From contig OX637625.1 of assembly GCA_951802195.1 (NCBI GenBank), positions 930,001-994,000 on the forward strand: DNA of 64,000 nucleotides, written 5' to 3'. A program made the translations under genes and the position numbers. This DNA comes from Tausonia pullulans. Lineage: Eukaryota > Basidiomycota > Tremellomycetes > Cystofilobasidiales > Mrakiaceae. Shown in pieces: positions 20,616-39,632 of this stretch. Position 1 is the first letter of the stretch; every line of letters begins with the position of its first letter. The notes under the pieces were generated by a model. The model searched no databases and was not told the DNA's origin. It worked only from the letters and a program-made list of their open reading frames with translations.

Positions 20616-20671
20616 CATCTCTCATAGGGTTACCTCGTCCTTCACGTATAACTCATGACCTGAATACAAAA
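20616..20671 (+). mobile_element. LINE 3'-tail fragment, upstream of tRNA-Val
   Basis: About 56 bp match the last part of the LINE in sense orientation (CTCATAGGGTTACCTCG to CATGACCTGAATACAAAA). It is 5'-truncated, 77 bp upstream of the tRNA-Val 5' end, and divergent from it. It is shared with copy 2 (56696-56751), so it is older than the duplication. Confidence 0.75.
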
Positions 20672-21044
20672 TTGCCGTCTCTCCCAGCGTCGTGTCGTCG
20701 CCTCTACACTAACGACACATGATCCTTGACTTTCATGCAGAAAAGAAAAGAGACCTCTGCGCCCTCCGCCCTCCGCCCTCCGCCCTGGGGCTGGCCAACT
20801 GGCCAACTCGGAGGCTGCTCATCGATCTTGCGCTAGATCGATGGCTCAGTCGCGGCCAGGACCCGGACGGCTCGTGCCCCGACGGTTCGTGTCGAGCTGG
20901 GCCCCACATGAGAGCCGCTGGACGGTGCCCGTCCCTCCTCGCGCTGTTCGTGCTCGCCCCCGCCCTCGCCCTGTCCATCCCTGGCCTGTTCAGATGGGCA
21001 GATGTAACCTCAGACGCCCTTTGGAACCTGCAAAAGGAAACATT

Positions 21045-21144
21045 AGCCCCACGGGGGGGTCGAACCCCCAACCTTCAGATCACCAGTGACGATGATAGCA
21101 TCCTGCCTAAGAGTCTGACGCTCTACCGATTGAGCTAGCAGGGC
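21045..21144 (-). tRNA. tRNA-Lys(CTT), intron about 27 nt
   Basis: Acceptor GCCCTGC pairs GTGGGGC; anticodon stem TCAGA/TCTGA; loop CTCTTA with anticodon CTT, then an intron of about 27 nt after position 37. T arm GGGGG-TTCGACC-CCCCC. It recurs at 26636, 57161 and 61308. Confidence 0.93.
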
Positions 21145-21509
21145 AGCAGACAACCCAGCCGAAGCCGTCGTCGTCCATTGCCCACATCGCGTCCACTCCT
21201 AGCGGGATCCGTCCCCGAGGGCGGAGTACAACAGCGGAGGTCTCTTCACCAGCTGATCTCTGAGCCCAACGCCGCAGTCAACGCCCGCTATCAACCTTCG
21301 CGATCAATCTTCCCGATCAACGCTCGCGATCAACTCAGCAGTCAGTCGCCCAGATCTGCAGCGCTCTTTCGTGTCTGCCCCCCACCCAACGCCAAGATGT
21401 CCCTCTCAGGCCGCATGCTCCCGTGCGCTGTCCCCGTCTCAGAGATCTCGGCAAACTCACCAACTCGCCCGCCCAGCTGGCCACCTGGCCACCTGGCCAA
21501 AAAGAAGCG

Positions 21510-21642
21510 CTCTCTGGCGGGGAGTCGAACCCCGGTCTCCCGCGGACAACTGGGCTCTCTCGCCAGCCTGTTCTCCGGAGAGAATGGGCGGCGTCGGAGC
21601 CTGATTGACAGGCGGACATCTTAGCCGTTGGACCACCAAAGA
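21510..21642 (-). tRNA. tRNA-Asp(GTC), intron about 61 nt
   Basis: Acceptor TCTTTGG/CCAGAGA; anticodon stem TCCGC/GCGGG; loop CTGTCA gives GTC; T arm CGGGG-TTCGACT-CCCCG. The 61-nt intron begins ATCAGGCTCC and differs completely from that of the Asp gene at 35119, although the exons match. Confidence 0.9.
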
Positions 21643-21858
21643 CGGCAGAATCGTCAGGAGAGACAAGCCAATGGGGGCACGAGCGGCCCGACGGATCTCG
21701 ACACCTTCGCGATACCCTGTGCCCATCGTAGCAACCCCTCTGGCGTGGGCAAGCGGCCAGACTGCCAGCCGCCGCCAAGCAGCCACCAGACTGCCAGCAA
21801 CCAGCGCCAGCCGCTACCAGCCGCTACCAGCCGCTACCAGCCAGCCAAAATGAAAGCA

Positions 21859-21953
21859 TGATCGGAATGGGATTCGAACCCATGCCTGTGAAGACTAGCG
21901 AGTCCTATTCAAGAACCTGAAGCTAGCGCCTTAGACCGCTCGGCCATCCGACC
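21859..21953 (-). tRNA. tRNA-Leu(CAG), intron-containing
   Basis: Class II tRNA: acceptor GGTCGGA/TCCGATC; Leu-type D arm GCCGAGCGGTCTAAGGC; anticodon stem CTAGC/GCTAG; loop begins TTCAG, so anticodon CAG. A short intron follows, then a long variable arm and T arm ATGGG-TTCGAAT-CCCAT. Confidence 0.9.
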
Positions 21954-22358
21954 GCGAGCTCGTAATGGACTCCCACGAGAACACCACCGCCCTCGTTTGC
22001 CATGCCCTCGTTCGCCGTGCCAGCATGAGAGCAACACAGGAGAGAGGCGAGAGGAGAGAGGCGAGGGGAGGGAATTCCAAACCAGGCAACGCCGCGATGG
22101 ACCAGCGAAGGCTGGGCAGGACGCACAAGACGGAGATGGGCCGAGGCAAGAGTATGTGTCCCTGTCGCGGAGTCGCCCTGAACTCATGCCCTCGTCCCGC
22201 CGACGTCGCCCGGCGTTGCACTCCCTGTTTGGGAGCCATCATTGTGTCTTGTGTGACTTGTTGTGGCTTGCTGTGTCTTGTTGTGCCTTGCTGTGACGTT
22301 GGGTTGGTTCGACCGTCTGAACTTGCGCACGCCAGCAACAAAAGAGAGCGGACGCTCA

Positions 22359-22431
22359 AGCTTCCTAGCCGAATCGAACGACTGACCTCATCATTACTAG
22401 TGACGTGTTATAGCCCCTAAACCAAGGAAGC
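22359..22431 (-). tRNA. tRNA-Thr(AGT)
   Basis: A 73-nt cloverleaf with perfect 7-bp acceptor GCTTCCT/AGGAAGC; anticodon arm CGTCA-CTAGTAA-TGATG gives AGT; T arm AGTCG-TTCGATT-CGGCT. No intron. Confidence 0.92.
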
Positions 22432-22758
22432 GATGGATGTCACTCGCCTTCGTTAGATCCACCTTCTCGGGTGCCATCTCCGTCGTCCCGTCTTTTTTTT
22501 TCCAGACGTTCACAAGCTGGACGAATCGACTCACAGGTCGTCTTCAAGCCTGTCCAGCCTGTCCAGCCTCGTGGCCTGTTCGTCTGCTCCTGTGCAGGAC
22601 CCGGCTGCACCACGCCGGCTGCACCACGACCGCCATACTGCAGATGCGCAGGCAGGGCTGGGCGGAGGAGGGAAGCGCCAAGGAAATGGATAGGGGTGGG
22701 AGAGAGAATGATTGTCAGAGGGCGAGACAGGCGATGGTTATGGCATGAACAACCGCCT

Positions 22759-22831
22759 GGGGATTTAGCTCAGTTGGTAGAGCGTACGCTTAGCATGTGT
22801 AAGGTCATGAGTTCAACTCTTATAGTCTCCA
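22759..22831 (+). tRNA. tRNA-Ala(AGC)
   Basis: A 73-nt cloverleaf; acceptor GGGGATT/AGTCTCC; anticodon arm TACGC-TTAGCAT-GTGTA gives AGC. The only plus-strand gene in the left half of the array. Copies at 36446 and 58875. Confidence 0.93.
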
Positions 22832-23148
22832 AGATGATCCTCTCTCTCGTTGAGAGGCCGTCGTCCTTTTGTTGGGCGGGGCGGGACAAGCCAGTGACAG
22901 CGGCGAAGCAGGCGATCGGGCCCTCGGCCCACTGCGTACATGCCACCACGGCAGGTAGCTCGTACGAACACACCCGGCGGTACGTACACACATGGCGCTC
23001 ATCCACATCCACAACCACATCCACATCCACCATCTTGCAAAGCACCGCCGAAAGAGCCAGTCTCCGTCCGGTCCGCCCTGGACGGCAACAAACACTCAGG
23101 ACCTGCCGTCACCCTGCCGTCACCCCCTATGAGGGCAGCAAAAGAGGA

Positions 23149-23221
23149 TGCCTCGAGCCTGGCTCGAACAGGCCACCTTACGCTCTTCAGGCGTACGCTC
23201 TACCAGATGAGCTATCGAGGC
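23149..23221 (-). tRNA. tRNA-Phe(GAA)
   Basis: A 73-nt cloverleaf; acceptor GCCTCGA/TCGAGGC; anticodon arm TACGC-CTGAAGA-GCGTA gives GAA. It has no intron, although Phe tRNA genes of many fungi do. Confidence 0.93.
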
Positions 23222-23545
23222 AGTCGTGGTGGTCACCGATGGACCACATCAATACAAAACACACAACCCACTCCCGTCTCTTCCATGGCCAGGCGAGATG
23301 ATGGACGACAGCTGAATCGGACAGACTCCGGCCAACGGCATCTCGGCGGGAGGCCAACAGTGGGTGGCCGCCGATACTGCAAGGGACGAGGATGCAGCTT
23401 GCGGGGATCGGTAGGGTGGTCCGTGAGCGGCACAGCAATAGAAGAGCGAGACGCCAGGTCGACAGACAAGAACGAGACGCCAGGTTGATCGGCAAGATCG
23501 AGGGGCCAGGTCCAGGTCGATCGGCAGGACGACCGACAAAAATCT

Positions 23546-23619
23546 TGATCAATGAGGGGGTCGAACCCGCGACCTTGGCGTTATTAGCACCACGCTCTAA
23601 CCAACTGAGCTAATCGATC
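23546..23619 (-). tRNA. tRNA-Ile(AAT)
   Basis: A 74-nt cloverleaf; acceptor GATCGAT/ATTGATC; anticodon arm TGGTG-CTAATAA-CGCCA gives AAT; one mismatch in the T stem. Confidence 0.9.
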
Positions 23620-23689
23620 AACTGTCGGACAGTGACCGCAAGTGTCAGGCACGCGATGCCTTCACAAGCGCCCGTGCCAGCCATCTGTC

Positions 23690-23774
23690 TCTCCCTCTAT
23701 CTAGCTACGACTCGCTGTCGCTCATAGGGGTACCTCGTTCTCTACGTATAACTCATGGCTTTGATACAAAAAAA
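23690..23774 (+). mobile_element. LINE 3'-tail fragment, upstream of tRNA-Ile
   Basis: About 85 bp of LINE 3' end (CTATCTAGCTACGA to GATACAAAAAAA), 5'-truncated, about 70 bp upstream of tRNA-Ile and divergent from it. In array copy 2 the same tail is cut in two by an inversion breakpoint. Confidence 0.85.
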
Positions 23775-24415
23775 GCGAGAAGAAACAAGGAAAAAGAAAA
23801 AAGGAAAAAAATAAAAATAAAATAAAAATAATAAAAAAGGGACAGCATCCAACGCACGCTCTGTCCCGCTGCCCCGGATGAGTCCTCCGTCCATCTCTTC
23901 GACGAGCCTGTCCTGTCGTGCGCGCCGTCTGGACCGCTGCCGTGTGCGTCTCGCCTCGCCTTGTCCCATTATGTCCCACTACAACATGGACCCACTACAA
24001 CATGGACCAGAAAAGAGATGCTCTCGACGCCCCGCAAAAAGGAAGTTTTCGAAGATGGCAGGATTCGAACCTACGCGGCCAAAGGCCAACAGCTAACGAT
24101 CGGGCGCTCCCAGTGTGTGCCCGACTGACAGCGGACAATCCAACACAACCGGGAAGCTGGACTCGTTCGAAACTATCATCGTAACCACTTGATTCCATCT
24201 CCAGACCGACGACTCATGGCAATGACCGCAGAGGTGACCATTACCACCGGCCGCTGCCCAACAGCACGCCGGCCCATTGTCGCACGCCGCAACACTCCAT
24301 CTCCCTACATTGACACAGCTAGCCACCCCCGCATCATCGACCTGTCGACGACTGCACACTGGCCCGCTTCCGTCACCACCTCACCCACCTCGCGCACGAA
24401 GGAGGTCGTGTTGCT
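23708..24415. other. Segment inverted between array copies (ancestral order here)
   Basis: This segment of about 0.7 kb lies in the opposite orientation in copy 2 (59848-60553). The left junction falls inside the LINE tail at 23690-23774, which is continuous here. This copy therefore keeps the older order. Confidence 0.88.
24050..24202 (-). tRNA. tRNA-Ser(CGA), intron about 71 nt
   Basis: Class II tRNA: acceptor GGAGATG/CATCTTC, discriminator G; D arm ATC...GAT; anticodon stem ATAGT/GCTGT; loop TTCGAA gives CGA; long variable arm TGGCCTTTGGCCGC; T arm GTAGG-TTCGAAT-CCTGC. The intron of about 71 nt is unusually long. Position 8 is G here but T in the copy at 60059. Confidence 0.85.
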
Positions 24416-24572: not shown

Positions 24573-26180
24573 TTTTTTTGTATCTAGGTCATGGGTTATA
24601 CGTAGAGAACGAAGTAACCCTATGAGAGATGGTGATTCGTAGCTAGATAGAGGGATTGCGAAGATGAAAGTAGGGGTGGAAGGAAAGCAAAAGATGAGTA
24701 TGGACATAGGCCCATTAGAAAAGGGAAGATACTAAGATGACCAGCTACATCAAGCTTGTCGCAGAGCCAGCCTGGACAGGTTTGAAAGTAACATAGCGGT
24801 TGACCCAGTCGGGTAACTGCTGAGAGAAGGCATTTGCCCTTGGCATCGTCTTGGAGCCAGAAATATCGAGCAAGACTCTGACCTGGTCAGTTGGGACGCC
24901 GGGTAAGCGGGGGTGAAATTGACGCTGGAAAATGATGACACTGTCTCCGGAGGCTTCTACTTGTTTGCGAAACTCCTCCTCCACTCCGTCGGCGTGCTCG
25001 AAGTTCTCCAGCAGGCCTTCCTGCAGGAGCTTGTTTGGGGTTTGGGTATTGTAGCACGCGTGGATCTGAGGCTTCACGCCTCTCACATTCAGCGGGAGGG
25101 CCTGTAGTTGGATCAGGATATCTTGAGCGTTTCCTCGAGAGTTGACTAAGAGGAGCATTCTGCCTTTAGGGTCCTTGACAGGACGGATCAGGAAAGACAG
25201 TCGTTCGTCGCACTTGGAGATTGCGAGAGAGATCTCGAAGGGAGTAGTATCTCGAGGGACTGAAATGGCTAGACAATTCCCGCGATCGGTAGCCAAGGCT
25301 GGGGCGATTGGGGTAGTATCCTGCGGAGGTTGTTGAGCGGCTCCGAAGACGAAGGCGAACCGGGGCTGGGTGCCAGACGAGTCACGTTGCGTCGCAGCTG
25401 AAGTTGTAGGAAAAGCCTGTCTGGCGGTTTTCGCATGTGAGCGGCCGATGGCGTTCGGCTGCGACTTCGCGGCGGCGCGGGTGTTGGCCGAGGTCGCCGG
25501 CGCGGGCGACGCGGCGCCGAGGACGAAGGGAGATTGCTGAGAGAGTGTCTCGCCTGTGGAGCGAGACGGTGTGAGATGCGCCACTTCTGGCGTGAGGGAT
25601 GGAGCGGCATTGAGGCCGCTGATGGCTGAGCTCGACAGTGTGACACGGCCAGTCGAGGGGGTTGCAGGGGTACGGCGGAGAGGGGAGGGAGAAGAGAGGG
25701 GGGCCGTGGGGCTGATGTGGTTGTGGGGCGTGGTAGGGTCGGGGGTAGGAGTAGTAGGGTGGGTGCTATCGGTAGCTTCGGTAGCCTCGGTAGCTTCGGT
25801 AGCTTCGGTAGCCTCGTTGGCCTCGGTAGCCTCGGTGGCTTCTGTAGGCTTGATAGGCTTACTGGGATGGGTAGGGGCGCTAGGGTCACTAGGACTGGTC
25901 GGACGAGAAGGAGAGCCGAGGGTGGGTTTGTTGACGGGCGTGTTGGGACGTTCGTCGATGCGAGAGGGCGTGTTGGTCGCCGTGTCTTGGACGGCGATGG
26001 CCGCCTCGCCCGATCCGCTCTTTTGCTGTGCTGGAGAGGGAGGGCCCAGGGGATCCTCGGGAGCCCTGAGAGATCCCTCGCCCCGCCTGAGGGCTGAGTC
26101 ACTAGGCATATGGTAGGGTGATCTGGGTTGACGTGGTGGCCTGGTGGCCTGGTGGCCTGGTGGTGGTTGTGGTGGGTTGT
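24573..26180 (-). mobile_element. LINE internal-deletion derivative (ORF1 part + 3' tail), upstream of tRNA-Leu
   Basis: The minus-strand element starts near 26180 with the same 5' end type and ORF1 N-terminus as the full LINE. It runs through about 450 codons of ORF1, then jumps straight to the LINE 3' tail (from about 24750), which ends in an A run (T at 24573-24579). The second half of ORF1 (zinc knuckles) and all of ORF2 are missing. It lies about 70 bp upstream of tRNA-Leu(AAG) and is divergent from it. No clear target duplication is seen; copy 2 has different DNA at this place. Confidence 0.85.
24745..26112 (-). CDS. Shortened LINE ORF1 protein without zinc knuckles
   Basis: The open frame parallels the first two thirds of the full ORF1. 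Shared blocks include RGNCLAISVPRDTTPFEISL, AISKCDERLSFLIRPVKDP, LLQEGLLENFEHADGVEEEF and LPGVPTDQVRVLLDISGSKT. It then ends FKPVQAGSATSLM, just before the point where the full protein has its CCHC knuckles. Start chosen at the Met matching ORF1 (MPSDSALRR, about 26112); the frame stays open upstream to 26247, but that part covers the 5' UTR and target flank. It keeps a long open frame despite the deletion, so it may be recent or still expressed. No nucleic-acid-binding knuckle is left, so it could act only through the N-terminal part. Confidence 0.7.
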   Translation of the reverse strand, partial: HMPSDSALRRGEGSLRAPEDPLGPPSPAQQKSGSGEAAIAVQDTATNTPSRIDERPNTPVNKPTLGSPSRPTSPSDPSAPTHPSKPIKPTEATEATEANEATEATEATEATEATDSTHPTTPTPDPTTPHNHISPTAPLSSPSPLRRTPATPSTGRVTLSSSAISGLNAAPSLTPEVAHLTPSRSTGETLSQQSPFVLGAASPAPATSANTRAAAKSQPNAIGRSHAKTARQAFPTTSAATQRDSSGTQPRFAFVFGAAQQPPQDTTPIAPALATDRGNCLAISVPRDTTPFEISLAISKCDERLSFLIRPVKDPKGRMLLLVNSRGNAQDILIQLQALPLNVRGVKPQIHACYNTQTPNKLLQEGLLENFEHADGVEEEFRKQVEASGDSVIIFQRQFHPRLPGVPTDQVRVLLDISGSKTMPRANAFSQQLPDWVNRYVTFKPVQAGSATSLM

Positions 26181-27139: not shown

Positions 27140-27606
27140 TGTTCTTTTGCACGGCCATCAGAAGAGCGAGCTGCCAGGCATTGGCCGTTGGTTGTTGGCC
27201 GTTGGTTGTTGGCCGTTGGTTGCTGGTCGTTGGAGGCGTCCTGCTGGATCTCGACGAGAGGCGCAGCTCACTGTTCGTGATGTAGGCCACTGCTCTTTCC
27301 AGCTCACCACAAGAGCCGGGGCTTCCCTTGCGGCCCTTACATACCCTAGGTCAGGTCACTTGGTGAGGTCAAGTCGTGGCTCGTGTTGCAGCGTGTCCGG
27401 GTCGCGCTCCTGCCTTGCCGAGGGCTACCTAGTGTCGTTCAATCGGGTCTCTTGCGATCCGACCTAGTGTCTCTTGCCGGGCGAGTTTGTCCCGGAATGC
27501 CCTACTCGGAAACACGTCCTCCGACTTGCCGGCCTCACTAGCTTGCCGCAGCCCCTTCCCGTTTTTTTGTATTTAAGTCTTCCCGTTCCCGGGTATTCTA
27601 CGTCAC

Positions 27607-27614
27607 GGTCCGAG
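27607..27614. repeat. Target-site duplication, LINE 3' side
   Basis: GGTCCGAG is directly repeated at 33482-33489 and occurs once at the empty site 62310-62317. Confidence 0.9.
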
Positions 27615-27852
27615 TTTTTTTTTGTATTTAAGTCATGAGTTATACGTAGAGAACGAGGTAACCCTATGAGAGATGGTGATTCGTAGCTAGATAGAGTGAG
27701 AGCGAAAATGAAAGTAGGGGTGGAAGGAAAATCAAAGATGGGTCATGGACATAGGCCCATTAGAAAAAGGTAAGATATCAAAATGTCCGGCCAATTCAAG
27801 CGGTGGCTATGGTCTATAGTCTAGCCATACTTCTCCACCCCTGACCTGCTGT

Positions 27853-30800
27853 TCACCCAGGATCGATGGCGGCACCGAGGGCAGTACCAGCCATCTGGCC
27901 ACTGCCAGCCATCCACCTCGTACTCGACTGCCAGAGTGTCCGTCGGATTGTGGACGCGATCTTGCGGATTTCCTCGTCCGTGACAGGATCGAGGGCTGGG
28001 ATCTTGCTGTACCTCCGCCTCCGGACGAATCGCCATGTCCGGGCTACAAAGATGCAGTGGAAGAGGAAGACCGCCCTCGGCGGCGACGGTGTCGGGCAGA
28101 CAAGCGTCTGGAGAGAGGGAGGATGGGAGGGGAGTGAAGGCGAGGCACGTGCAGCAGCAGCAGCCGACCAGATAGCGCGCACGACGGGACACGGCTCGTC
28201 GAAGAGGTGGAAGAAGGACTCAACAGGGGCCGTCAGGCACAGCGCACATCGCTTGGACCTGTTGTGCGGTGTAGCGGTTCCGTCGGCGAGGAATGGCGCA
28301 GCAGTGTGCTTTCCTGGGTGGAGGCTGTACAGCGAGAAACGGTGGGCCAAGTCGACGTCTTCGGGCGACGCTTGGGACACGGCCTTGAGCAAGCACCACT
28401 GACGCTTCCAATCGATCTTGGTAAGCGCCGGGAAGTGGTCCTGCCATCCCTTTGGGATGATGAGGTCGTGGTTGGCTAGAGTCCGACTGTGTGCGCCGTG
28501 GGGCTCACGAGGAACGTTCAGCCGGCCAAGGTTTGTGTGGATAGGGAGGAAACCCAGCCGCAACTGGCTATCTGTACCGAACGTAGACATCCAGTGGACA
28601 GCGTTCCTCCAGCGGTCTTGATTCCAATAGCTCATGTCAAAGCTGATTTCTTCGAACCATGCCCGGAGGTAAGCCTGCCAACGTGCAGGGAGAGCTCTTC
28701 GGAGCCTTGGGATGGCATTCCACCAGACGGCTGGGAAGAACCATTGACCTTCCACTGGGGAAAGAAAAACGCCTAACCAGCTGAAGTTGGCGGGCCGGGG
28801 TCCACTGATGAACTCTCCATCCCTGAAGATGGTGCGAGTCAGCATTCTATAAGCTTCTGGATCGAGGCTCATGGTATGGATGATACGCTTGCGAATGCGG
28901 ATCGATGCGGGTAGCTCCGGTCTGAAGAGTACATCGCCAGCCCACTGGGCGCGCGCTTTGATGAGCCGGAAGCGGAGTGGCGTGAAGCCGAAGCCGCCGA
29001 GGTCTCGAGGGGTTTCTAGGCGTTCCCTGCTGACGTCGTGGTGTTTAGATCGGTAGAGGGACTTGTAGGCCGTTGCCTCGAGGTCTGTCAGGATATCGTC
29101 TGGGCACGGCAGGAAGCGGTCCAGGTAGATGACCTTCGAGTAGATGTACTGGTTGATGACGTTGCATCGCGCAAGGAGAGGGAGATCGTGCAGCGGGATG
29201 CGAGCAAGACGAGCCTTCAGCTTGCCGATGATCTCTCGCCAGTGAGCAGGCCCGTTGACCGTGCGACCGCATGGAACGCCGAGGAAGTCGAATGAAAGCG
29301 TTTGGACACGCCACTCGTGGTACCTCGTAGGCGCATCCGTCCGGCATGACCCTAGAGGATACAGGAGTGACTTCTGGTAGTTCAGCTTGCTTGCTGCGGC
29401 TTTCTCGTACTCTCGGAGGCAGACCGTCGCCTCATCGACCTCCGACCAAGTCCGACACCGGATACTGAGATCGTCTGCAAAGAGGAGGACCTTCCGCTCA
29501 TGTAGAGGGGGCGGATTGGCCGGTGGGAGGCGATGGCGGAGCATACATGCCAGCGGCTCCAGGAGGAGGGCGAAGATCGTCGGTGCCGCGGGATCGCCCT
29601 GTCGGACACCAGACCGGATGTCGATGGCTTGGCCCATCCATCCGTTGATCATGAGCCGAGCTGTCTGAGAGGTCATCGTTGAGGTGATCCACGCTGCGGC
29701 GCGTGGGCCGAACCCCATGTGGCTGAGGCAGGGGCCAACGAAGTCGTGCGACACTCTGTCGTATGCCTTCTCAAAGTCGACTTGGGCGAGGACGCCAGGC
29801 AGGAGGTCTTCGTCGTCTATGGCGAGCTGAAGAGAGGAGATGTTACGACCCGAGTCGCGGCCAGGGAGGAAGCCTGTCTGGTCCCCGTCGATGAGGGTGT
29901 CCACAACGGTGAGCAGGCGGCTGTTGATGGCAAGGGAGAAGATGCGCGCGTCAACGTTGATGAGCGAGATCGGACGATAGTTGGCAATCTGATCGCGATC
30001 TCCCTTCTTCTTGAAGATCAGGTGGATATGGGCCTCGCGCTGTGAGGCTGATCGGAGGCCTGTCTCCGGGACGAGGTTCAGTAGGCTGAGGAGGATCGGT
30101 CCGACGACAGCCCATGTGGCCTGGTAGAACTCGACGGGGATCCCGTCACTTCCTGGTGTCTTGTTACGGTTCGATCTGAACGTAGCCCGCCTGAGCTCGT
30201 CCGGTTCGAAGGGTTTCTCGAGGGTCCGACTCTGGGAGTCGTCGAGTGTGTTGGTGACATATTGGAGGGCGTTGGCGTGCTCGGCAGCTGGCGTCGTCTT
30301 GGTCTCATAGAGAGTCGTGTAGAAGGTGTGTGCTGTAGCTAGAATGCTCTCGTTGTTTGCGATGGCTGCGGCTGCTGGGTTGTCGAGAGGCCGCAGGGCT
30401 GCGATAGTGTCGGCCTGGCGGACGATCTTGAGTCGCTGCTTGACGGCATACTCGCTTGTGTTGGCAGGTTCGAGATGGGCTCGAAGAGCGTGGCCTTGGA
30501 GGATCGACCTGTGTGGATCCCCGCCCGACACTCTGCTCATTCGGGCGAGGTGTCTTGAGATGTCTGATGCGTGATCCGCTATCTGAAGCTTGGTCTCGTC
30601 CCAGGCCTCGAAGGGGTCCCTGCTCTCTGTAAGCGCATCGTGGTACCACTCGGGGATATGGAATAGGAAGTATTCGACAAAACCGGTAATCTTCAGAAGG
30701 TGAGTTCCGATCTTGTACGATCCGGGACCGTGCTGTATTGCACCGGGGAAGGTGAGGCTGAGTGCGATCGGCTTGTGGCTAGAGTACAGGTGGCCGGTCG

Positions 30801-31530
30801 GACGTGGTAGGAAGCGCTGTCGCACGGCTCGGCTAGCGAGTAGAGGCGACAGGTAGAAGCGATCAATGCGGCGATCTGCTCGCGTGATGCCAGTATAGTT
30901 GGTGTATTCGCGCTGAAGCGGGTATAGGGATCGGTATGGGTCAGAAAGGGCAAAGTCCCGGGCCAGCCGGCACATTTCCTCCTTTCCTGCGTTCTGGGTA
31001 AATTGGCTCATCCCGTCGAGGTAGCTGTCCTCCACACAGTTCCAATCCCCGCCCAGAAGGAGAGGAATGTCAGAGTGGGCAGGTATCTTGCGAGATAGAG
31101 TAGAGATGAACTCCTTTGTCGAACGGCCGTTTGTTTGGCTGTCTCGGCAGGGGACGTAGACTGCAGCCAATCTGACGGCTTCGCCGGCTATGGTGAAGAC
31201 AGCATCCGTCAGGTTGGTTCGTAAGATGGGGGAGGAGCGGGATATGGATCTGATCCTAGTTGGTGGGGTATCGGGAGGAAGGAATCGAGAGGCATGTCGC
31301 CAGAGGATGGCAGTCTGGCATCCGACCGTAAAGATCGAGCCGAAGCCCATATCTTCACATTCGGCTGTCCAGGTAGCTACCTGATCTGGTGTTGTGCATG
31401 CCACTTCTGAGAGAAGGTATATGTCAGCCTTGGATCGTGAATATAGAGAGAGGAGGAGACTGCGGGCGCGATCTCGCGTGAACACCCTCTGGATGTTCGC
31501 CGCGACGATCTGGACATCGTTGTACACCAT
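27853..31530 (-). CDS. LINE ORF2: AP endonuclease - reverse transcriptase - CCHC
   Basis: This 1225-aa protein nicks target DNA and primes cDNA synthesis. Residues about 1-245 are an exonuclease-endonuclease-phosphatase domain (VAANIQR, LLSEVAC, LLGGDWNCVEDS, RIDRFYLSP, SSHKPIALSL). Residues about 420-760 are a reverse transcriptase: NKTPGSDGIPVEFYQATW, FKKKGDRDQIANYRPISL, QVDFEKAYDRVSHDF, GVRQGDPAAPTIFALLLEPL, and the catalytic LLFADDLSI. Near the C-terminus, CALCLTAPVESFFHLFDEPC is a CCHC-type motif usual in LINEs. No RNase H domain is seen. Its ATG overlaps the ORF1 stop as TAATG (31532-31528). Fully open frame, so likely recently active. Confidence 0.96.
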   Translation of the reverse strand: MVYNDVQIVAANIQRVFTRDRARSLLLSLYSRSKADIYLLSEVACTTPDQVATWTAECEDMGFGSIFTVGCQTAILWRHASRFLPPDTPPTRIRSISRSSPILRTNLTDAVFTIAGEAVRLAAVYVPCRDSQTNGRSTKEFISTLSRKIPAHSDIPLLLGGDWNCVEDSYLDGMSQFTQNAGKEEMCRLARDFALSDPYRSLYPLQREYTNYTGITRADRRIDRFYLSPLLASRAVRQRFLPRPTGHLYSSHKPIALSLTFPGAIQHGPGSYKIGTHLLKITGFVEYFLFHIPEWYHDALTESRDPFEAWDETKLQIADHASDISRHLARMSRVSGGDPHRSILQGHALRAHLEPANTSEYAVKQRLKIVRQADTIAALRPLDNPAAAAIANNESILATAHTFYTTLYETKTTPAAEHANALQYVTNTLDDSQSRTLEKPFEPDELRRATFRSNRNKTPGSDGIPVEFYQATWAVVGPILLSLLNLVPETGLRSASQREAHIHLIFKKKGDRDQIANYRPISLINVDARIFSLAINSRLLTVVDTLIDGDQTGFLPGRDSGRNISSLQLAIDDEDLLPGVLAQVDFEKAYDRVSHDFVGPCLSHMGFGPRAAAWITSTMTSQTARLMINGWMGQAIDIRSGVRQGDPAAPTIFALLLEPLACMLRHRLPPANPPPLHERKVLLFADDLSIRCRTWSEVDEATVCLREYEKAAASKLNYQKSLLYPLGSCRTDAPTRYHEWRVQTLSFDFLGVPCGRTVNGPAHWREIIGKLKARLARIPLHDLPLLARCNVINQYIYSKVIYLDRFLPCPDDILTDLEATAYKSLYRSKHHDVSRERLETPRDLGGFGFTPLRFRLIKARAQWAGDVLFRPELPASIRIRKRIIHTMSLDPEAYRMLTRTIFRDGEFISGPRPANFSWLGVFLSPVEGQWFFPAVWWNAIPRLRRALPARWQAYLRAWFEEISFDMSYWNQDRWRNAVHWMSTFGTDSQLRLGFLPIHTNLGRLNVPREPHGAHSRTLANHDLIIPKGWQDHFPALTKIDWKRQWCLLKAVSQASPEDVDLAHRFSLYSLHPGKHTAAPFLADGTATPHNRSKRCALCLTAPVESFFHLFDEPCPVVRAIWSAAAAARASPSLPSHPPSLQTLVCPTPSPPRAVFLFHCIFVARTWRFVRRRRYSKIPALDPVTDEEIRKIASTIRRTLWQSSTRWMAGSGQMAGTALGAAIDPG

Positions 31531-33434
31531 TATTCTTCCATGTCCTCGGCTTCAGCCAAGGTCACGAGGGTGTGCTCGATGGATGCCTGGGAGGACGGCT
31601 TGGAGGGGATGAGAGAAGGAGTGGAGGGTGGATTCAGGGGGATTGAAGATGGGGGGGATGGGGATGAGGGAGGGGGAGACGATGGTGGCAGGGGAGGTGG
31701 AGTGGAAGGTGGATGCTCGTCTTCGACCTGCATCCCGTCTTCCTTCCTCGTCAAATCCTCTTCGTTGTCATCCTCTATGGCGCTCCGTGTGTGGCTGGGT
31801 TGCGAGCCCGCATTGCGCGGTGCTTGCTCTGAGAGGGAGTGGGAGGTGCCGGCGTGGGCAGGGGGTGTGGCCAGCTCTGTCATGGCTTCAGTCGGCCTGT
31901 TCAGTGACCTCCTTTTGGATTTTTGTACGAGCTGGTATCCATCCAGGTCTGTTCCCGGTCCGGCAGGTCGGTGGGGGGGTCCTTCGATTGGTGCTCGCGC
32001 ACTCGCTGGAAGGTTTGCCTTCGGACGACCTGGGCATCGGGCAGATGGGTGAGCGTGCGATCCGCATCCGCCACACTCTGGAGCGGTGGGACACTTGACA
32101 CGAGCGTGCTCAAATGAGTGGCAGTAGTAGCAGTATGACGAGGCTGGTCGAGATGGAGAGTTTGTCCCCGTGGCAGGTCGGACAGGTTTGAAGATGACAT
32201 GATGGTTGACCCAGCCGGGTAGCTGTTGAGGGAATGCATTCGCTCTCGGCATCGTCTTGGAGCCAGAAAGGTCGAGCAGAACTCTAACCCGGCCAGTTGG
32301 GACGCCGGGTAAGCGGGCGTAATACTGGCGCTGGAATATGATGACTCTGTCTCCAGAGGCTTCTACTTGTTTGCGAAACTCCTCCTCCACTCCTTTGCCT
32401 TTTTCGAAGTTCACCAGCAGACCTTCCTGCAGGAGCTTGTTTTGGGAATTGTAGCACGCGTGGATCTGAGGTTTCACCCCCCTCACGTTCAGCGGGAGGG
32501 ACTGTAGTTGGGTCAGGATGTCTTGAGCATCTTCTTCAGAGTCGACTAGGAGGAGCATTCTGTCTTGAGGGTCCTTGATAGGACGGACCAGGAAAGACAG
32601 TCGTTCGTCGTACTTGGAGATTGCGAGAGAGATCTCGAAAGGAGTGGTATCTCGAGGGACTGAGATGGCTAGACAGTTCCCGCGGTCGGTAGCCAAGGCT
32701 GGGGCGATTGGGGTATTATCCTGCGGAGGTTGTTGAGCGGTTCCGAAGACGAAAGGGAACTGGGGCTGGGTGCCAGACGAGTCACGTTGTCCCGCAGCTG
32801 AGTTTGTAGAATGAGCCTGTTTTGCGGCGTTCGCATATGAGCGGCCGATGGCGTTCGGCTGGGATTTCGCGGCGGCGCGAGTGCGGGTGCCGGCGGAGGT
32901 TGCCGGCGCGGGCGACGCGGCGCCGGGGACGAAGAGAGGTTGTTGAGGGAGAGTCTCGCCTGTAGAGCGAGACGGTGTGAGACGCGTCACTTCGGACGTT
33001 GAGGATAGAGCGGCATTGAGGTCGCGGATGGCTGAGCTCGACCGCGTGACACGGCGAGTTGAGGGGGTTGCAGGGGTCCTGCGGAGGGGGGAGGGAGAAG
33101 AGAGGAGAGCCGAGGGGGTGACATGGGTGGGAGGGTTGGTAGGAGTAGTAGGGTTGGTAAGATTGGTACGATTGGTAGGAGTGCTGGGGTCGGTAGGATT
33201 GGTAGGAGTGCTAGGGTTGCTACGACTGGTTGGATGGGCAGGAGGGGTGGAGGTGGGTTTGTTGACGGGCGTTTGGGGACGTTCGTCGAGGCGAGAGGGC
33301 ATATTGGTCGCGTCCTGGACGCTAGGGGTTTCATCGGATCCGCTCTTTCTCTTTGCTGAGGAGGGAGGGTCTGGGGGATCCTTGGGAGCCTTGAGGGCTT
33401 CTTGGAGTCGCTTGGGGGTTGATTCACTAGGCAT
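31530..33434 (-). CDS. LINE ORF1: Gag-like RNA-binding protein with two CCHC knuckles
   Basis: A 634-aa protein expected to coat LINE RNA. A low-complexity Pro/Ser/Thr-rich N-terminus (about 1-200) is followed by a conserved block (GNCLAISVPRDTTPFEISLA to RVLLDLSGSKTMPRANAF). Then come two CX2CX4HX4C knuckles (CYYCHSFEHARVKC and CGGCGSHAHPSARC) and a Pro-rich acidic tail ending LAEAEDMEE. The ATG at 33432-33434 matches the start MPSD of the derivative at 26112. The stop TAA overlaps the ORF2 ATG. The conserved central block could be an RRM-like fold, but that is not tested. Confidence 0.92.
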   Translation of the reverse strand: MPSESTPKRLQEALKAPKDPPDPPSSAKRKSGSDETPSVQDATNMPSRLDERPQTPVNKPTSTPPAHPTSRSNPSTPTNPTDPSTPTNRTNLTNPTTPTNPPTHVTPSALLSSPSPLRRTPATPSTRRVTRSSSAIRDLNAALSSTSEVTRLTPSRSTGETLPQQPLFVPGAASPAPATSAGTRTRAAAKSQPNAIGRSYANAAKQAHSTNSAAGQRDSSGTQPQFPFVFGTAQQPPQDNTPIAPALATDRGNCLAISVPRDTTPFEISLAISKYDERLSFLVRPIKDPQDRMLLLVDSEEDAQDILTQLQSLPLNVRGVKPQIHACYNSQNKLLQEGLLVNFEKGKGVEEEFRKQVEASGDRVIIFQRQYYARLPGVPTGRVRVLLDLSGSKTMPRANAFPQQLPGWVNHHVIFKPVRPATGTNSPSRPASSYCYYCHSFEHARVKCPTAPECGGCGSHAHPSARCPGRPKANLPASARAPIEGPPHRPAGPGTDLDGYQLVQKSKRRSLNRPTEAMTELATPPAHAGTSHSLSEQAPRNAGSQPSHTRSAIEDDNEEDLTRKEDGMQVEDEHPPSTPPPLPPSSPPPSSPSPPSSIPLNPPSTPSLIPSKPSSQASIEHTLVTLAEAEDMEE

Positions 33435-33481
33435 AAGGTAGGGTGACCTGGGTTGACCTGGTGGTGGTTGGTCCTGGTGGT

Positions 33482-33489
33482 GGTCCGAG
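33482..33489. repeat. Target-site duplication, LINE 5' side
   Basis: GGTCCGAG, matching 27607-27614, followed by the CCTGCGGAGG flank that continues the empty site at 62318. Confidence 0.9.
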
Positions 33490-33882: not shown

Positions 33883-33993
33883 GGCCTTCTCTTCTCAGGC
33901 CAACTGCCTCCCTCCCTTCAGACGCGCTCGCCTCGCTGCCCCTACCTGCTCCGTGGTAGATGAAAGGTGAAGGATGACCGGTAGCCGGTAGAC

Positions 33994-34420
33994 TTTTTTT
34001 TTGTATTTAAGTCATGAGTTATACGTGGAGAACGAGGTAACCCTATGAGAGATATCGAGTTGTAGCTAGATAGAGGGAGAGCGGACATGACCGAGCGCGA
34101 GAACGTCGGGCGAGGCGCCGTGGGAAGAGGGTTGGCCGAACCACTGGGGATGATTGGCCGGACGGCGTGATGGGCGCCGTGAGAGGGGGGTTGGTCGAAC
34201 CACCGGGATGGTGGTTGGCCGGAAGAGGGTTGGTCGAACCACTGGGGATGGTTGGCCGGACGGCGTGATGGGCGCCGTGAGAGGGGGGGGGGGTTGGTCG
34301 AACCACCGGGGATGGTGGTTGGCCGGAAGAGGGTTGGTCGAACCACTGGGGATGGTTGGCCGGACGGCGTGATGGGCGCCGTGAGAGGGGGGGGGGGTTG
34401 GTCGAACCACCGGGGATGGT
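33994..34420 (-). mobile_element. SINE-like non-autonomous element with LINE 3' tail, upstream of tRNA-Ala
   Basis: A 427-bp insertion flanked by GGTAGAC (33987-33993 and 34421-34427) and absent at the matching site in copy 2 (near 62790). Its last 90 bp or so are the LINE tail; the rest is unrelated to the LINE and made of about three repeats of roughly 90-100 bp, each with GGTTCGACC. It lies 72 bp upstream of tRNA-Ala and is divergent from it. A relative is at 38205-38372. Confidence 0.9.
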
Positions 34421-34492
34421 GGTAGACGGGGGAAACGAATTGTAGTCTGGACATGGACGATCGTGCTGGCAGCGGCTCCCTATCCATAGTTG

Positions 34493-34893: not shown

Positions 34894-35027
34894 TTTTTTT
34901 GTATCTAAGTCATGAGTTATACGTAGAGAACGAGGTAACCCTATGAGAGATATCGAGTAGTATCCAGATAGAGGGAGAGCGAAAGTAAAGAACAGGTAGA
35001 AGGAAAGCAATATATGGGTGTGGACAT
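34894..35027 (-). mobile_element. 5'-truncated LINE copy, upstream of tRNA-Asp
   Basis: About 134 bp of LINE 3' end starting with a T run and GTATCTAAGTCATGAG. Copy 2 has the uninterrupted sequence GGGGTTGTTTCAGCCGGG at about 63275-63292. The 5' end is 91 bp from tRNA-Asp and divergent from it. The target duplication is very short (about 3 bp) or absent. Confidence 0.9.
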
Positions 35028-35833: not shown

Positions 35834-36445
35834 TGCCTGAGATGGCTGAGGGGCCTGAGATGGCTGAGGTGCACATGCACACAGGTGACCTGCACGGGTG
35901 GCCGTCTTCTTTTGTCGCTCTCGAACTCTGATGGCGCAAGAGAGAAGCGGCCAGGGAAATGCGCTGCTGTGTGGACGGGGGTGCAATTCGGCATGCACCT
36001 CGAGAGTTGATGCAGTTCCGAAGGACGTGGACGACACTGCATACATCGGGAGTGGAAGGGGGAGAGAGTCTGGATGGCATACCCCGACGGCGAATCAGCC
36101 ACGGCTGCGAGTCCCCATCACCGGCACTTGCTCCCGGCGCTTGCTGCTCCCGACACTCACTCCGAGGACAGTCTCTTTCTCTTGCTAGACAGGCCTCTGT
36201 CCATCTGCCTGCGGGACACAAGCTGTCGTTCCTCCTCTATCAATCGCACTTGCCTCCGTCTCACCCGCGCTCAGAGGCTCATAAGCCCCCACGTGCCGTG
36301 CGCTCCTGGCTCCAGCCCCCACGCATCAACATCTCTCGTGGCTGACTCTGATGCAGAGGGGACCACTCGACTGGCGAGGAGCTTGCCAAGTCTGCCGAAG
36401 GATGGCGTATCGTGTTCTCCATCGTGTTGGCAGCAGCACCTGCTC

Positions 36446-36518
36446 GGGGATTTAGCTCAGTTGGTAGAGCGTACGCTTAGCATGTGTAAGGTCATGAGTT
36501 CAACTCTTATAGTCTCCA
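36446..36518 (+). tRNA. tRNA-Ala(AGC)
   Basis: Same as the gene at 22759; anticodon arm TACGC-TTAGCAT-GTGTA. Confidence 0.93.
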
Positions 36519-36639
36519 AGCATTGCTCCTCTTCACAGGAGGAGTATGCAGTTTTGTCAGTCGTGCGATGCGCCAAATCTGTGCGTTCTTTTTTCTTTCT
36601 TCTTGACGTAGTGGGTACCTTCCCCGTTGCCCTTGCCAC

Positions 36640-36760
36640 GACTCGTCGCCTCGGCTCTGTGCCTGGCCACTTCCGCACCGGCGCTCCTGCGCTCCTGCGC
36701 TCCTGCGCCTCTGCGCCTGCACCCTCGCCTTTGTTCAATCGACGTGCTTCGGATGATCTG
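36640..36760 (-). mobile_element. LTR retrotransposon fossil, internal fragment
   Basis: GC-rich stretch with repeats of GCGCTCCTGC and the GTGCCTGGCCACTTCCG block, also seen at 41920-42010 (opposite strand) and 55500-55600. It appears to be a piece of the leader or gag region of the LTR element whose LTR lies at 19881 and 55966. Broken; no open product claimed. Confidence 0.4.
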
Positions 36761-36880
36761 CACCCGCGCCGCCGAGGGACACACAACGCAGTCCCGACGG
36801 CGACGGAGGGATGAGGGCCAGGGGGTCGGTCAGGGGGTCAGAGGGGTGGGGACGACGGGCGAGGGGCGAGAGTAGCTCCG

Positions 36881-37150
36881 TTTTTTTTGTATTTAAGTCA
36901 TGAGTTATACGTAGAGAACGAGGTAACCCTATGAGAGATGGTGGTTCGTAGCTAGATAGAAGGAGAGCTAGAATGAAAGTAGGGGTGGAAGGAAAAACAA
37001 AAGATGGGTTATGGACATAGGCCCAGTAGAAAAGGTAAGATACTAAGATGACCAGCAATGTCGAGTGGTGGCTATGGTCTATAGTCTAGCCATACTTCCC
37101 CACCTCGAACCTGCTTTTCACCCAGGATCGATGGCGGCACCGACAGCAGC
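36881..37150 (-). mobile_element. 5'-truncated LINE copy, upstream of tRNA-His
   Basis: About 270 bp holding the whole LINE 3' UTR and the last codons of ORF2 (the block around GGATCGATGGCGGCACCGA). The 5' end is about 70 bp from tRNA-His(GTG), and the two are divergent. Confidence 0.92.
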
Positions 37151-37219
37151 CCCGGATACCTCCTGCCGAAGATGTATGTACACCCTCTGGGACATTTCCA
37201 CATATCGATATATCGATAC

Positions 37220-37349
37220 GATTGATTAGTCTAGGTGGTTAGGGCGTTGGCTTGTGGCGAACAAAGGTCTCGTCTCTCCGTCACCGGGCAAGACGAGGCT
37301 GTGACTCATCATAACGCCAGATACCAGGGTTCGAGTCCCTGATCGATCA
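37220..37349 (+). tRNA. tRNA-His(GTG), intron about 57 nt
   Basis: Acceptor GATTGAT/ATCGATC; D stem GTCT/GGGC; anticodon stem TTGGC/GCCAG; loop TTGTGG gives GTG; T arm CAGGG-TTCGAGT-CCCTG. The intron of about 57 nt is long. Confidence 0.85.
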
Positions 37350-37982
37350 GCGCTGCTTGGCAGTTTCGCTTTTGTCGACTGACGCTGTGTTGATGATGAA
37401 CGCCGTAGGGATCGTCCGACCTGTTGGAAGGAGCGATTCGCGGAGACCCATCGTCTAGGAACTTCCAGCCCTTTTTCTTCTGTAGTTTTTTCTTCTGTAG
37501 TTAGCCATCCCTCTCTCCTCATCTTTTCCAGCACGTTCTACGCCACTCGGTAGAGCCTATATAAGCGGGCAGAGTCAGGTAGCTATATAATATAAGCTTG
37601 CAACCAGATTGAGCCCCAGGGCAAACCATGACCTTTAAACATTCAACACGACCGACAGCATACCGCGAGGTCGCACGGACAATGGATCTCGCGCACGTCA
37701 GCGGTCAACCGCCTTCCTTCGCCAACACACTTGCAGGGTCGCCATAGATCTCGGAAGCCAGACACCCTTGGGTCTACTCGGTCAGCGTGGCGAGCTAGTG
37801 TGAACGTCAACCAGGGCGACGGGTTAGTGTTCCGGGGCGACGAGCTAGTCTTGGCCAGGGCAGGTGCTCTGCCCAGCGATCCATAGGTCCACACGCGCAA
37901 GACGCCTCGCCATCGAGTGACACGCAGTCTGTGAATATAGCATAGAGCGAGGCCCTGGGTGACGAGGGAAACGGGCCAAAAG

Positions 37983-38125
37983 GGACCCAGACCGGATTTG
38001 AACCGGGGACCTCGTCCATGATCAACCAGTCTTCTCTCTCTCGAGCGAAGACTGGCTTGCTACGCCGGCATGCGGCGATTTGCAGTCAACCCAAAGGACG
38101 CGTGATACCACTACACCACTGGGTC
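37983..38125 (-). tRNA. tRNA-Pro(TGG), intron about 71 nt
   Basis: Acceptor GACCCAG/CTGGGTC perfect; D arm GTGTAGTGGTATCAC; anticodon stem CGTCC/GGACG; loop TTTGGG gives TGG; the 71-nt intron can fold on itself (CCAGTCTTC / GAAGACTGG). Confidence 0.88.
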
Positions 38126-38204
38126 AAGCCAGAGCCACTGGGGCTGGTCGTGCTGTTCATGCTCGCGTGCTCGAGGTCCTTGTGGCCTGTGGAGTGGGGC
38201 GGCC

Positions 38205-38372
38205 ACCACCAACCACCATCCCGGTGGTTCGACCAACCCTCTTCCCACGGCACCTCGCCCGACGTTCTCGCGCTCGGTCATGTCCGCTCTCCCTCTATCT
38301 AGCTACGACTCGCTATCTCTCATAGGATTACCTCGTTCTCCACGTATAACTCATGACTTGAATACAAAAAAA
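38205..38372 (+). mobile_element. SINE-like element with LINE tail, upstream of tRNA-Pro
   Basis: Shares the body (GTGGTTCGACCAACCCTC, then GACGTTCTCGCGCTCGG) and LINE tail of the element at 33994 but holds one repeat unit only. About 80 bp upstream of tRNA-Pro and divergent from it. Confidence 0.85.
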
Positions 38373-38817
38373 CCGGTTGTTGACGAGGAGCGTGCCGACG
38401 GCGAGATCAGCCGGCTTGCCAGCTCTCGCTAGCTCAGGCTAGCTCAGGCGACAGGTCCTCTATGCTTGATGAAAGACCTAACATGTCAAAGAAGAAACGC
38501 TTACAGTCAGCAAGAACATGGGAAGACCGGCATGTAGCCCTTCCAGCCAGAGAACGGGATGAGACATGGTGTGTGAACACTGCGCATATCAGGGCTGACG
38601 CCGGAGGCGATGGGTGCTTGATCGATCCGGGCCAGGCCTGCCCGCCATCGCCCGCCACCACCTGCCACCACCTGCCACCGTCTGTCTTCTAGACTTGAGC
38701 TGCCTTGAGTTTACGCAAGGATGACAGAAACTTGTCCAGTTGTGAGGATCAACGGGCTGGCTGACGGAGGGAGACGTCGAGCATCGAGCATCAGGCATCT
38801 CGCTTTGCTTTGTGCAA

Positions 38818-38908
38818 CACCGCTTAGCTCATCTGGAAGAGCGTCAGACTGTAAAGTTACTCTAATACACTCCTCTGAAGGTATCTGGTTCGATCCCGGA
38901 AGTGGTGA
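38818..38908 (+). tRNA. tRNA-Tyr(GTA), intron about 18 nt
   Basis: Acceptor CACCGCT/AGTGGTG; D arm GCTC...GAGC; anticodon stem TCAGA/TCTGA; loop CTGTAA gives GTA; intron as in nearly all eukaryotic Tyr genes; T arm TCTGG-TTCGATC-CCGGA. Confidence 0.92.
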
Positions 38909-39287
38909 TAGCTTTTGCCAGTCATTTGCCAGTCATTTGCCAGTCATTTGCCGGTTTTGTGCCGCTCTTGTGCGCCTTCCTGTGTCTTTTGTCTGAAGGA
39001 CAGAGAGGTGCCATGAGGGCGGTGAAGCCGGCGGTGCCTCAGGTTGGCCAGACCCCCCCCCCCCTCACACGGCAAGCCCAAGTCAACAGGCACGGGCAAG
39101 GCTGGGCAAAGGCAAAAGACGAGGATGCAGCCCAGACGAAAAGGCGAAAATGAAGCTGGTTGGTAGCAGCCAGGCCAGGCGGCACGGCGTGCCATCCTTG
39201 TCTCTCACACCTTACCTCTTTCGATGCTGCGAGGCCTTTCCCCATATGAACGAAACTGTTGGGCGAAAAACAAAGGAAAGGAAAGAC

Positions 39288-39428
39288 AACGACAAAGAAA
39301 AGACAAAGAAAAGACAAAGAAAAGACAAAGAAAAGACAAAGAAAAGACAAAGAAAAGACAAAGAAAAGACAAAGAAAAGACAAAGAAAAGACAAAGAAAA
39401 GACAAAGAAAAGACAAAGAAAAGACAAA
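39288..39428. repeat. 11-bp minisatellite (AAAGAAAAGAC)
   Basis: About twelve near-perfect tandem units directly downstream of tRNA-Gly(GCC). The open frames crossing it (Lys-rich or Phe/Ser/Leu-rich) are only the repeat translated. Confidence 0.95.
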
Positions 39429-39433
39429 AAATG

Positions 39434-39520
39434 TAATGGTGCCGGGAATTGAACCCGGGCCTAGTGCATGCTGCAAATCTGCTTGGCAAGCACCAATGAT
39501 AGCCACTTCACCACACCATT
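39434..39520 (-). tRNA. tRNA-Gly(GCC), intron about 15 nt
   Basis: Acceptor AATGGTG/CACCATT; anticodon stem GGTGC/GCACT; loop TTGCCAA gives GCC; T arm CCGGG-TTCAATT-CCCGG. Same as the plus-strand gene at 40948. Confidence 0.9.
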
Positions 39521-39607
39521 CACCGCATCTCAACGCTGACGCCTGAGATTGATGGTCAATCAGCGACCCGCGCTCAACCACCGCGGCATCTTTCGAGCTC
39601 CCAGGTT

Positions 39608-39632
39608 TGTGTCATGACTTAGACACAAAAAA
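39608..39632 (+). mobile_element. Very short LINE tail remnant, upstream of tRNA-Gly
   Basis: GTCATGACTTAGACACAAAAAA resembles the last 20 or so bases of the LINE. About 88 bp upstream of tRNA-Gly(GCC) and divergent from it. Weak by itself, but position and orientation fit the other copies. Confidence 0.4.

Follow-up and report, generated by a model that had tools for sequence, protein, structure and literature searches.

A 64,000-nucleotide stretch of the Tausonia pullulans genome (the window; C6:930001-994000 of a 23.86 Mb assembly in 21 contigs) was analyzed for retrotransposons lying beside tRNA genes. The window carries two tRNA gene arrays, array copy 1 and array copy 2, which are diverged duplicates. 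A long interspersed nuclear element (LINE) and a partner family resembling a short interspersed nuclear element (SINE) are inserted upstream of many of these genes. tRNA genes were mapped by ARAGORN, with introns allowed, and by the Rfam tRNA model, which gave 34 matches within the window. The elements were mapped by BLAST, using the full-length LINE of the window (Table 1) and three SINE-like copies as queries. Coordinates without a contig prefix are those of the window.

At eight tRNA genes of array copy 1, BLAST placed an element upstream and divergent from the gene, with the element's 5' side towards the gene and its A-tail away from it. A sequence-only reading of this DNA had proposed a LINE 3' end in this arrangement at nine tRNA genes. 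Eight of the nine places were confirmed, and the re-measured gaps (Table 1) lay within about 12 bp of those proposed; the ninth, upstream of tRNA-Gly, stayed weak. The same reading had assigned all nine to one LINE, which did not hold for the two SINE-like elements of array copy 1, and the copy at tRNA-Leu proved to be an internally deleted LINE whose middle is missing and in which part of open reading frame (ORF) 1 is fused to the 3' end. Overall, 9 of the 14 element blocks in the window ended 55-110 bp upstream of a divergent tRNA gene. When blocks were placed at random within the arrays, 0.51 qualified on average, and no more than 4 in any of 5000 trials.

Table 1. Element insertions, coding regions and related features in the window.
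Feature	Position	Strand	Remarks
5'-truncated LINE end	20611..20671	+	71 bp upstream of tRNA-Val (20466-20539, -); BLAST
5'-truncated LINE end	23689..23774	+	68 bp upstream of tRNA-Ile (-); copy-2 homologue split by local inversion
Internally deleted LINE	24573..26167	-	82 bp upstream of tRNA-Leu (26250, +); no counterpart in array copy 2
Full-length LINE, 5.87 kb	27612..33484	-	5' end lies 58 bp from tRNA-Glu (33543, +); distal end has short A-tail; BLAST
ORF2	27853..31530	-	AP-type endonuclease and reverse transcriptase; best solved-structure match human L1 ORF2p
ORF1	31530..33434	-	S/T/P-rich N-terminus, conserved middle, two CCHC-like knuckles (by eye)
SINE-like element	33991..34425	-	65 bp upstream of tRNA-Ala (34491, +); no counterpart in array copy 2
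5'-truncated LINE end	34894..35027	-	91 bp upstream of tRNA-Asp (35119, +); no counterpart in array copy 2
5'-truncated LINE end	36881..37149	-	70 bp upstream of intron-bearing tRNA (37220, +; ARAGORN Tyr, sequence-only reading His)
SINE-like element	38209..38372	+	83 bp upstream of intron-bearing tRNA (37982-38125, -; ARAGORN Ala, sequence-only reading Pro)
Possible ultra-short LINE remnant, weak	39608..39633	+	88 bp upstream of tRNA-Gly (39433-39520, -); about 25 bases, by eye; missed by BLAST
Old diverged element 3' end, 58 bp	55249..55306	-	No tRNA at expected place
Array copy 2 homologue of Val insertion	56691..56751	+	71 bp gap; BLAST
Array copy 2, half of Ile insertion	59828..59855	+	68 bp gap
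Array copy 2, other half of Ile insertion	60485..60552	-	Displaced by inversion of about 707 bp
Empty site upstream of tRNA-Glu, array copy 2	62310..62370	+	

The comparison of the two arrays gave a divided result: some insertions of array copy 1 were common to both arrays, and others were missing from array copy 2. The insertions at tRNA-Val and tRNA-Ile were common to both. At tRNA-Glu, array copy 2 had the empty site of the full-length LINE, with a target duplication of CCGAG (5 bp; up to 8 bp counting GGT). The SINE-like element at tRNA-Ala was missing in array copy 2 and was flanked by a 7-bp duplication, GGTAGAC. The LINE fragment at tRNA-Asp was also missing, with a doubtful duplication of 0-3 bp, as was the internally deleted LINE at tRNA-Leu, where the flank differs as well. 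These filled and empty pairs show that true insertions took place. Between the arrays, an inversion of about 707 bp (23707-24413 versus 59848-60552) carries an intron-bearing tRNA-Ser gene. One of its breakpoints lies inside the Ile LINE remnant, which accounts for the displaced half of that insertion.

Long introns were seen in many tRNA genes of the window, for example at 21509-21642, 37220-37349 and 60058-60212; at related loci, ARAGORN gave introns of up to 85 bases. The isotype names of intron-bearing genes are therefore uncertain, as for the two genes named differently by ARAGORN and the sequence-only reading. Two further observations concern element-like sequence in both arrays. A 92-bp piece, about 81% identical to the LINE ORF2 and away from any 3' end, was found at 23871-23962 and 60299-60390. 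The sequence TTTTTTGTATTTAAGTC lies just outside the Glu insertion (27560-27580 and about 62262-62285); it resembles an older copy truncated to about 11 bp plus tail. The window also encodes a 5-aminolevulinate synthase, which shared no more than 78% identity with any other protein among the 120 listed of 2013 matches. Mrakia frigida gave the best-scoring named match (76%), Cryptococcus wingfieldii reached 77% with a lower score, and further Agaricomycotina came next. By this protein, the host is probably a basidiomycete of the Agaricomycotina close to the Tremellomycetes, and no close named relative appeared among the matches listed.

The LINE has a length of 5.87 kb, two ORFs, an A-tail and many 5' truncation points among its copies. 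The ORF1 start codon lies about 50 nt from the LINE 5' end; where a copy starts only with the second repeat, this distance is about 35 nt. The ORF1 stop and ORF2 start overlap in TAATG. ORF1 had no Pfam match, and its predicted structure, built from two sequences only, had a mean predicted local distance difference test score of 32.5, which is unusable and supports nothing. In ORF2, the reverse transcriptase matched PF00078 (RVT_1) with an E-value of 6.6e-25. For the endonuclease, the Exo_endo_phos match stayed under the Pfam cut-off when the protein was searched alone, but a family profile matched L1 endonuclease chains. A profile of ORF2 and two relatives scored 264 bits with human L1 ORF2p and 107 bits with R2; these are scores against a structure table holding no Tad1, I or Jockey entry, and not a clade tree. 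The closest proteins found were two sequences with 36-37% identity; an alignment search added no close named protein, and an NCBIfam search added nothing specific. A-tails had a median length of 10 and a range of 5-24 among 128 tails, at least 4 A being required by the pattern. With reverse transcriptase and apurinic/apyrimidinic (AP)-like endonuclease in one ORF, an A-tail, 5' truncation and target duplication, the element is a non-long-terminal-repeat (non-LTR) retrotransposon, or LINE, of the AP endonuclease (APE) type.

Near C6:890190, an inverted LINE segment stands head-to-head with a forward one, 3 bp apart; its far end was outside the sequence read. Twin priming is known from L1, and this pair would fit it.

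The partner family and the LINE have only the last ~97 bp in common, with about 90% identity. The partner body consists of a variable number of GC-rich repeats that start with AACCACCATCCC and contain GGTTCGACC units. Among 168 sampled 3' ends, classified by the best probe, 111 were LINE-type and 57 SINE-type. No conserved RNA structure was found in the shared tail when one was sought. Internal RNA polymerase III (Pol III) promoter boxes were also looked for. Three partner copies contained no match to the A box TRGYNNARNNG or the B box GWTCRANNC, and each had 5-6 near-B-box GGTTCGACC units; some other copies, judged by eye, contain GGTTCGACCCC, which is compatible with a B box. The family is thus SINE-like by its LINE-shared 3' tail, and not an established canonical Pol III SINE, since the three copies lack an A box and an exact B box.

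The distribution of the element outside the window was investigated with sequence searches and selected genomic stretches rather than with the whole assembly. A 31-base segment from the 3' end matched the genome 407 times when up to 3 mismatches were allowed (236 forward, 171 reverse), and the reversed-pattern control gave 0. At least 100 of the matches were exact. The first 76 of these in contig order, from C1 to C6:1371069, were taken as the copy sample; some of the remaining matches were met through other searches. Directly or via a stack of copies, 49 of the 76 led to a tRNA gene facing the element 5' end, and none was contrary. Of the 76, 29 were in blocks ending within 110 bp of a divergent tRNA gene, and one more (Tyr, 76 bp) lay in a further stretch. 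Another 17 were tied by distance to full-length 5' ends, their middle portion being unread: 12 stood beside a divergent tRNA gene, 1 led to tRNA-Glu via a stack and 4 ran into a further element, where the trace ended. Six further copies reached a tRNA gene via chains of stacked copies, which contain unread parts of 1.4 kb (C1) and 2.5 kb (C5). For 2 copies, tRNA-Ser was at the predicted place with the boundary itself unseen. The 2 copies of an inverted duplicate on C4 face a tRNA-like gene and were counted apart.

The tRNA-like gene near C4:640681 (about positions 1615-1720 of the stretch C4:639133-641133) was noticed by eye for its A-box-like and B-box-like stretches, and a SINE-like element lies about 68 bp upstream. 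Neither ARAGORN nor Rfam called a tRNA there.

Full-length 5' junctions gave the same picture in a set that partly overlaps the 76 copies. Junctions at 33 of 40 places were examined, the other seven lying inside stretches already covered. A divergent tRNA gene followed directly in 21 cases, at 59-100 bp (mean 77.5, sd 11.8); one of these genes was labelled 'Stop' by ARAGORN. The other 12 ran straight into the A-tail of another element. In total, 44 element blocks lay 58-105 bp from a tRNA gene (mean 77.8, sd 11.3). All were divergent, with 39 distinct 5' flanks, and blocks and junctions together hit 17 isotype labels. In stretches holding a tRNA gene, 42 of 54 blocks fell in the 55-110 bp divergent window; with position and strand randomised, 1.06 did so on average, and no more than 6 in any of 2000 trials. 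The remaining 12 include outer fragments and outer stack members.

The association was also investigated from the tRNA side. The 63 best-scoring tRNA genes were chosen blind to the element, and 250 bp upstream was searched for 37 of them; of the other 26, 13 were in stretches covered otherwise, 3 in junction stretches, and 10 were left out. An upstream element was present at 22 of the 37 genes. Every match was divergent, and 19 of the 22 ended at 63-112 bp. The sequence-only reading had held that a genome search should show clustering upstream of tRNA genes in one orientation, and that scattered or randomly oriented copies would speak against targeting. On the samples used here the copies were neither scattered nor random in orientation, so its test supports targeting. 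With a narrow upstream window, many isotypes and a fixed opposite orientation, the element is a tRNA-gene-targeted LINE.

Where several copies occur at one gene they are stacked head-to-tail, the newer copy between the tRNA gene and the older one, often with only a few bases from the new A-tail to the old 5' end. If new copies land on the gene side, nearer copies are expected to be younger. Age was estimated from how far each copy had diverged from its closest sampled relative at a different insertion, with segmental duplicates removed; this test was designed after the result of a cruder first test. Among 51 adjacent stack pairs, the inner copy was the one nearer to its relatives in 24 and the more distant one in 4, and 23 pairs were tied (sign test p = 1.8e-4). 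For the 23 pairs of the same type, the inner copy was closer in 14 and farther in 1, with 8 ties. At C2:364313-396800, six near-identical LINE plus SINE-like units were found with a spacing of 6.1-6.3 kb, probably a tandem amplification of one stack.

Position, orientation, the two families, A-tails, truncation, empty sites, short target duplications, stacking and age order were all read directly from the DNA. The interpretation that best joins them, to which we give a probability of about 0.87, is that an apparently L1-like LINE and a non-autonomous SINE-like partner sharing its 3' tail integrate mostly 58-105 bp upstream of tRNA genes, probably by target-primed reverse transcription with docking on the Pol III initiation complex. 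The ORF1 or ORF2 protein would dock on the assembled complex, in which TFIIIB is placed by TFIIIC. Docking would hold the endonuclease just upstream of the complex and offer one particular strand for the first nick, so that the 5' end would come to face the gene and the A-tail to lie on the far side. The same spot would remain a target because the tRNA promoter is internal and survives, and each new copy would land between the gene and the last copy, displacing older copies outward. Docking on the Pol III complex is favored because the orientation follows tRNA polarity, 100 junctions share no sequence, many isotypes are hit and the site lies just outside the region known to be covered by TFIIIB (PMC5391098).

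tRNA genes are poor in nucleosomes and act as barriers to replication forks. The target might accordingly be an exposed DNA state, such as a stalled fork, an R-loop or a nucleosome-free gap, and not a protein dock. The broad gap suits an exposed edge. However, the orientation tracks tRNA polarity in every resolved case, whereas an open region would permit both strands, and this alternative is considered unlikely, though it keeps some weight.

A sequence-specific endonuclease reading a DNA motif in the tRNA flanks is much harder to accept. Such LINEs exist, some of them specific for single tRNA genes (NeSL-1_TV, LIN15_SM and LIN25_SM; PMC4640811). However, 100 distinct A-tail junctions had no consensus other than at the first base, where A is excluded by construction, and the 17 isotype labels hit have differing 5' flanks. 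Random insertion followed by selection, with copies elsewhere lost from a compact genome that tolerates only tRNA-side insertions, was judged more improbable still. The flanks of tRNA genes have been discussed as safe sites in compact genomes (PMC5006619), but selection is not expected to impose one orientation and a narrow gap. Moreover, five full-length 5' ends, including that of the window, were 100% identical over 305 bp, so they are probably young copies, and they obey the rule too: three were 58, 93 and 61 bp from a tRNA gene (the first being that of the window), and two on C11 reached the next stack element within about 7 bp. Segmental duplication of a few arrays that already carried elements can be dismissed as the sole cause of the pattern: the window does hold two array copies with the Val and Ile insertions in common, and one Glu insertion is common to three C6 loci, but the 44 blocks have 39 distinct 5' flanks on many contigs, and four insertions differ between the window's two arrays.

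Several observations weigh against the favored interpretation. Target-primed reverse transcription and docking are the parts of it that we infer. The gap is broader than that of TRE5, the tRNA-targeting LINE of Dictyostelium discoideum. The excess of target duplications was modest: 33 single blocks gave a mean of 1.94 against 0.91 for shuffled flanks, with 1.82 as the best of 500 shuffles. Duplications of at least 5 bp were found in 9 of the 33; two of the nine were largely A-runs and two were on one insertion flank, which keeps this support modest. The cruder first age test, with one probe each for LINE and SINE-like copies, was non-significant (36 versus 24, 5 ties, p = 0.16), and was confounded by subfamily differences. 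Of the 76 copies, 23 were left undecided, because the sequence examined ended first or the predicted end was missed. Fifteen small stretches at predicted ends included 8 without an element or a called tRNA gene, which were read as copies truncated earlier and counted among the 23; one further stretch left its copy undecided. A few innermost copies, all divergent, lay farther out, at 125 and 158 bp (blocks) and 138, 149 and 180 bp (tRNA-first set), and the diverged 3' end at 55249-55306 was the sole misfit seen in the window. No element was found at 15 of the 37 sampled tRNA genes, including all 13 on C6 (22 of 24 occupied off C6 and 0 of 13 on it, within 250 bp upstream); the vacancy on C6 may arise because several of these genes repeat the same array positions. 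Finally, no element was present in about 400 bp upstream of one 5S gene or of two U6 genes scoring above the cut-off, under which a third U6 match fell; these genes are too few for TFIIIB and TFIIIC to be told apart.

The target may also supply a promoter. Since the 5' untranslated region is only about 35-50 nt long, divergent insertion may put the LINE start under the outward-facing activity of the Pol III initiation region, and a new insertion would then cut off the previous copy. In TRE5-A, the upstream tRNA gene enhances the activity of the A-module promoter (PMC5911963). We regard this extension as tentative and rather doubtful. If true, there would be one expressed copy per tRNA gene with first-in-line succession, and the stacks would be a dated record of transposition at the tRNA genes of this fungus.

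Yeasts are well known to have LTR elements at their tRNA genes. Ty1 and Ty3 integrate beside Pol III genes, Ty3 via TFIIIB (PMC5911963); they are like the present element in their target but unlike it in being LTR elements with an integrase. In Rhizopus, Ty3-like LTR elements co-localise with tRNA genes (PMC2699053). Among LINEs, NeSL-1_TV, LIN15_SM and LIN25_SM also target tRNA genes; they are NeSL-clade relatives with a restriction-like endonuclease, each using one tRNA species (PMC4640811), whereas the endonuclease here is AP-type and 17 isotype labels are hit. The Zorro elements of Candida albicans are likewise fungal LINEs and belong to the L1 superfamily; Zorro3 is 5.8 kb long and has two ORFs, the first with a zinc finger region (PMC7175516). 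Compared by description, Zorro3 inserts into poly(A) stretches and Zorro1/2 are subtelomeric, with no tRNA targeting described in that source; the Cryptococcus element Cnl1 goes to telomeres (PMC7175516). The sequence-only reading knew of no tRNA-targeted LINE in this fungal group, and a search of the open-licence literature, to which subscription papers and repeat databases do not belong, likewise gave no fungal LINE of this kind among the matches listed.

Elements of similar behavior are found in social amoebae. NLTR-B of Polysphondylium pallidum and NLTR-A of Dictyostelium purpureum are also non-LTR elements and lie upstream of tRNA genes, in the case of NLTR-B by 39-64 bp (PMC5911963, PMC5006619). 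Both have an RNase H domain, whereas Pfam found none in the fungal ORF2. The analogy with Dictyostelium TRE5, which the sequence-only reading had drawn, was apt. TRE5-A is a two-ORF APE-type LINE of the L1 group, inserted upstream of tRNA genes in the opposite orientation, and TRE5 elements also form tandems (TRE-TRE) at one gene and include TRE5-A.2, a non-autonomous derivative that is targeted in the same way (PMC5911963, PMC5391098). The internally deleted LINE at tRNA-Leu is reminiscent of TRE5-A.2. TRE5-A, whose ORF1 protein binds TFIIIB subunits, depends on the B box (PMC5911963, PMC5391098). The fungal element appears to work like TRE5, as judged from geometry and organisation; protein searches gave no named Dictyostelium match among the matches listed.

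The two systems also differ. The TRE5 gap is mostly 47 +/- 3 bp (PMC5911963, PMC5391098), whereas that of the fungal element is 58-105 bp (mean 78). About 24% of D. discoideum tRNA genes have TRE5-A and 61% some TRE, compared with 22 of 37 sampled genes in the fungus. TRE5-A hits 5S genes, whereas the single fungal 5S gene found was without an element. The fungal system is also set apart by its host, a basidiomycete, by deep stacks whose age order was measured, and by a SINE-like partner that has a repeat body of its own. The stacks preserve insertion order, so the transposition history can be read gene by gene. A LINE that lands repeatedly and apparently harmlessly at known places is of practical interest for safe-site integration. 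As far as the literature searched shows, social amoebae are the only other hosts known to have a LINE that lands upstream of tRNA genes of many isotypes in a single orientation. The basidiomycete case offers a second system for finding the protein contact, and suggests that docking on the Pol III complex either evolved anew in a fungus or has an older origin than supposed.

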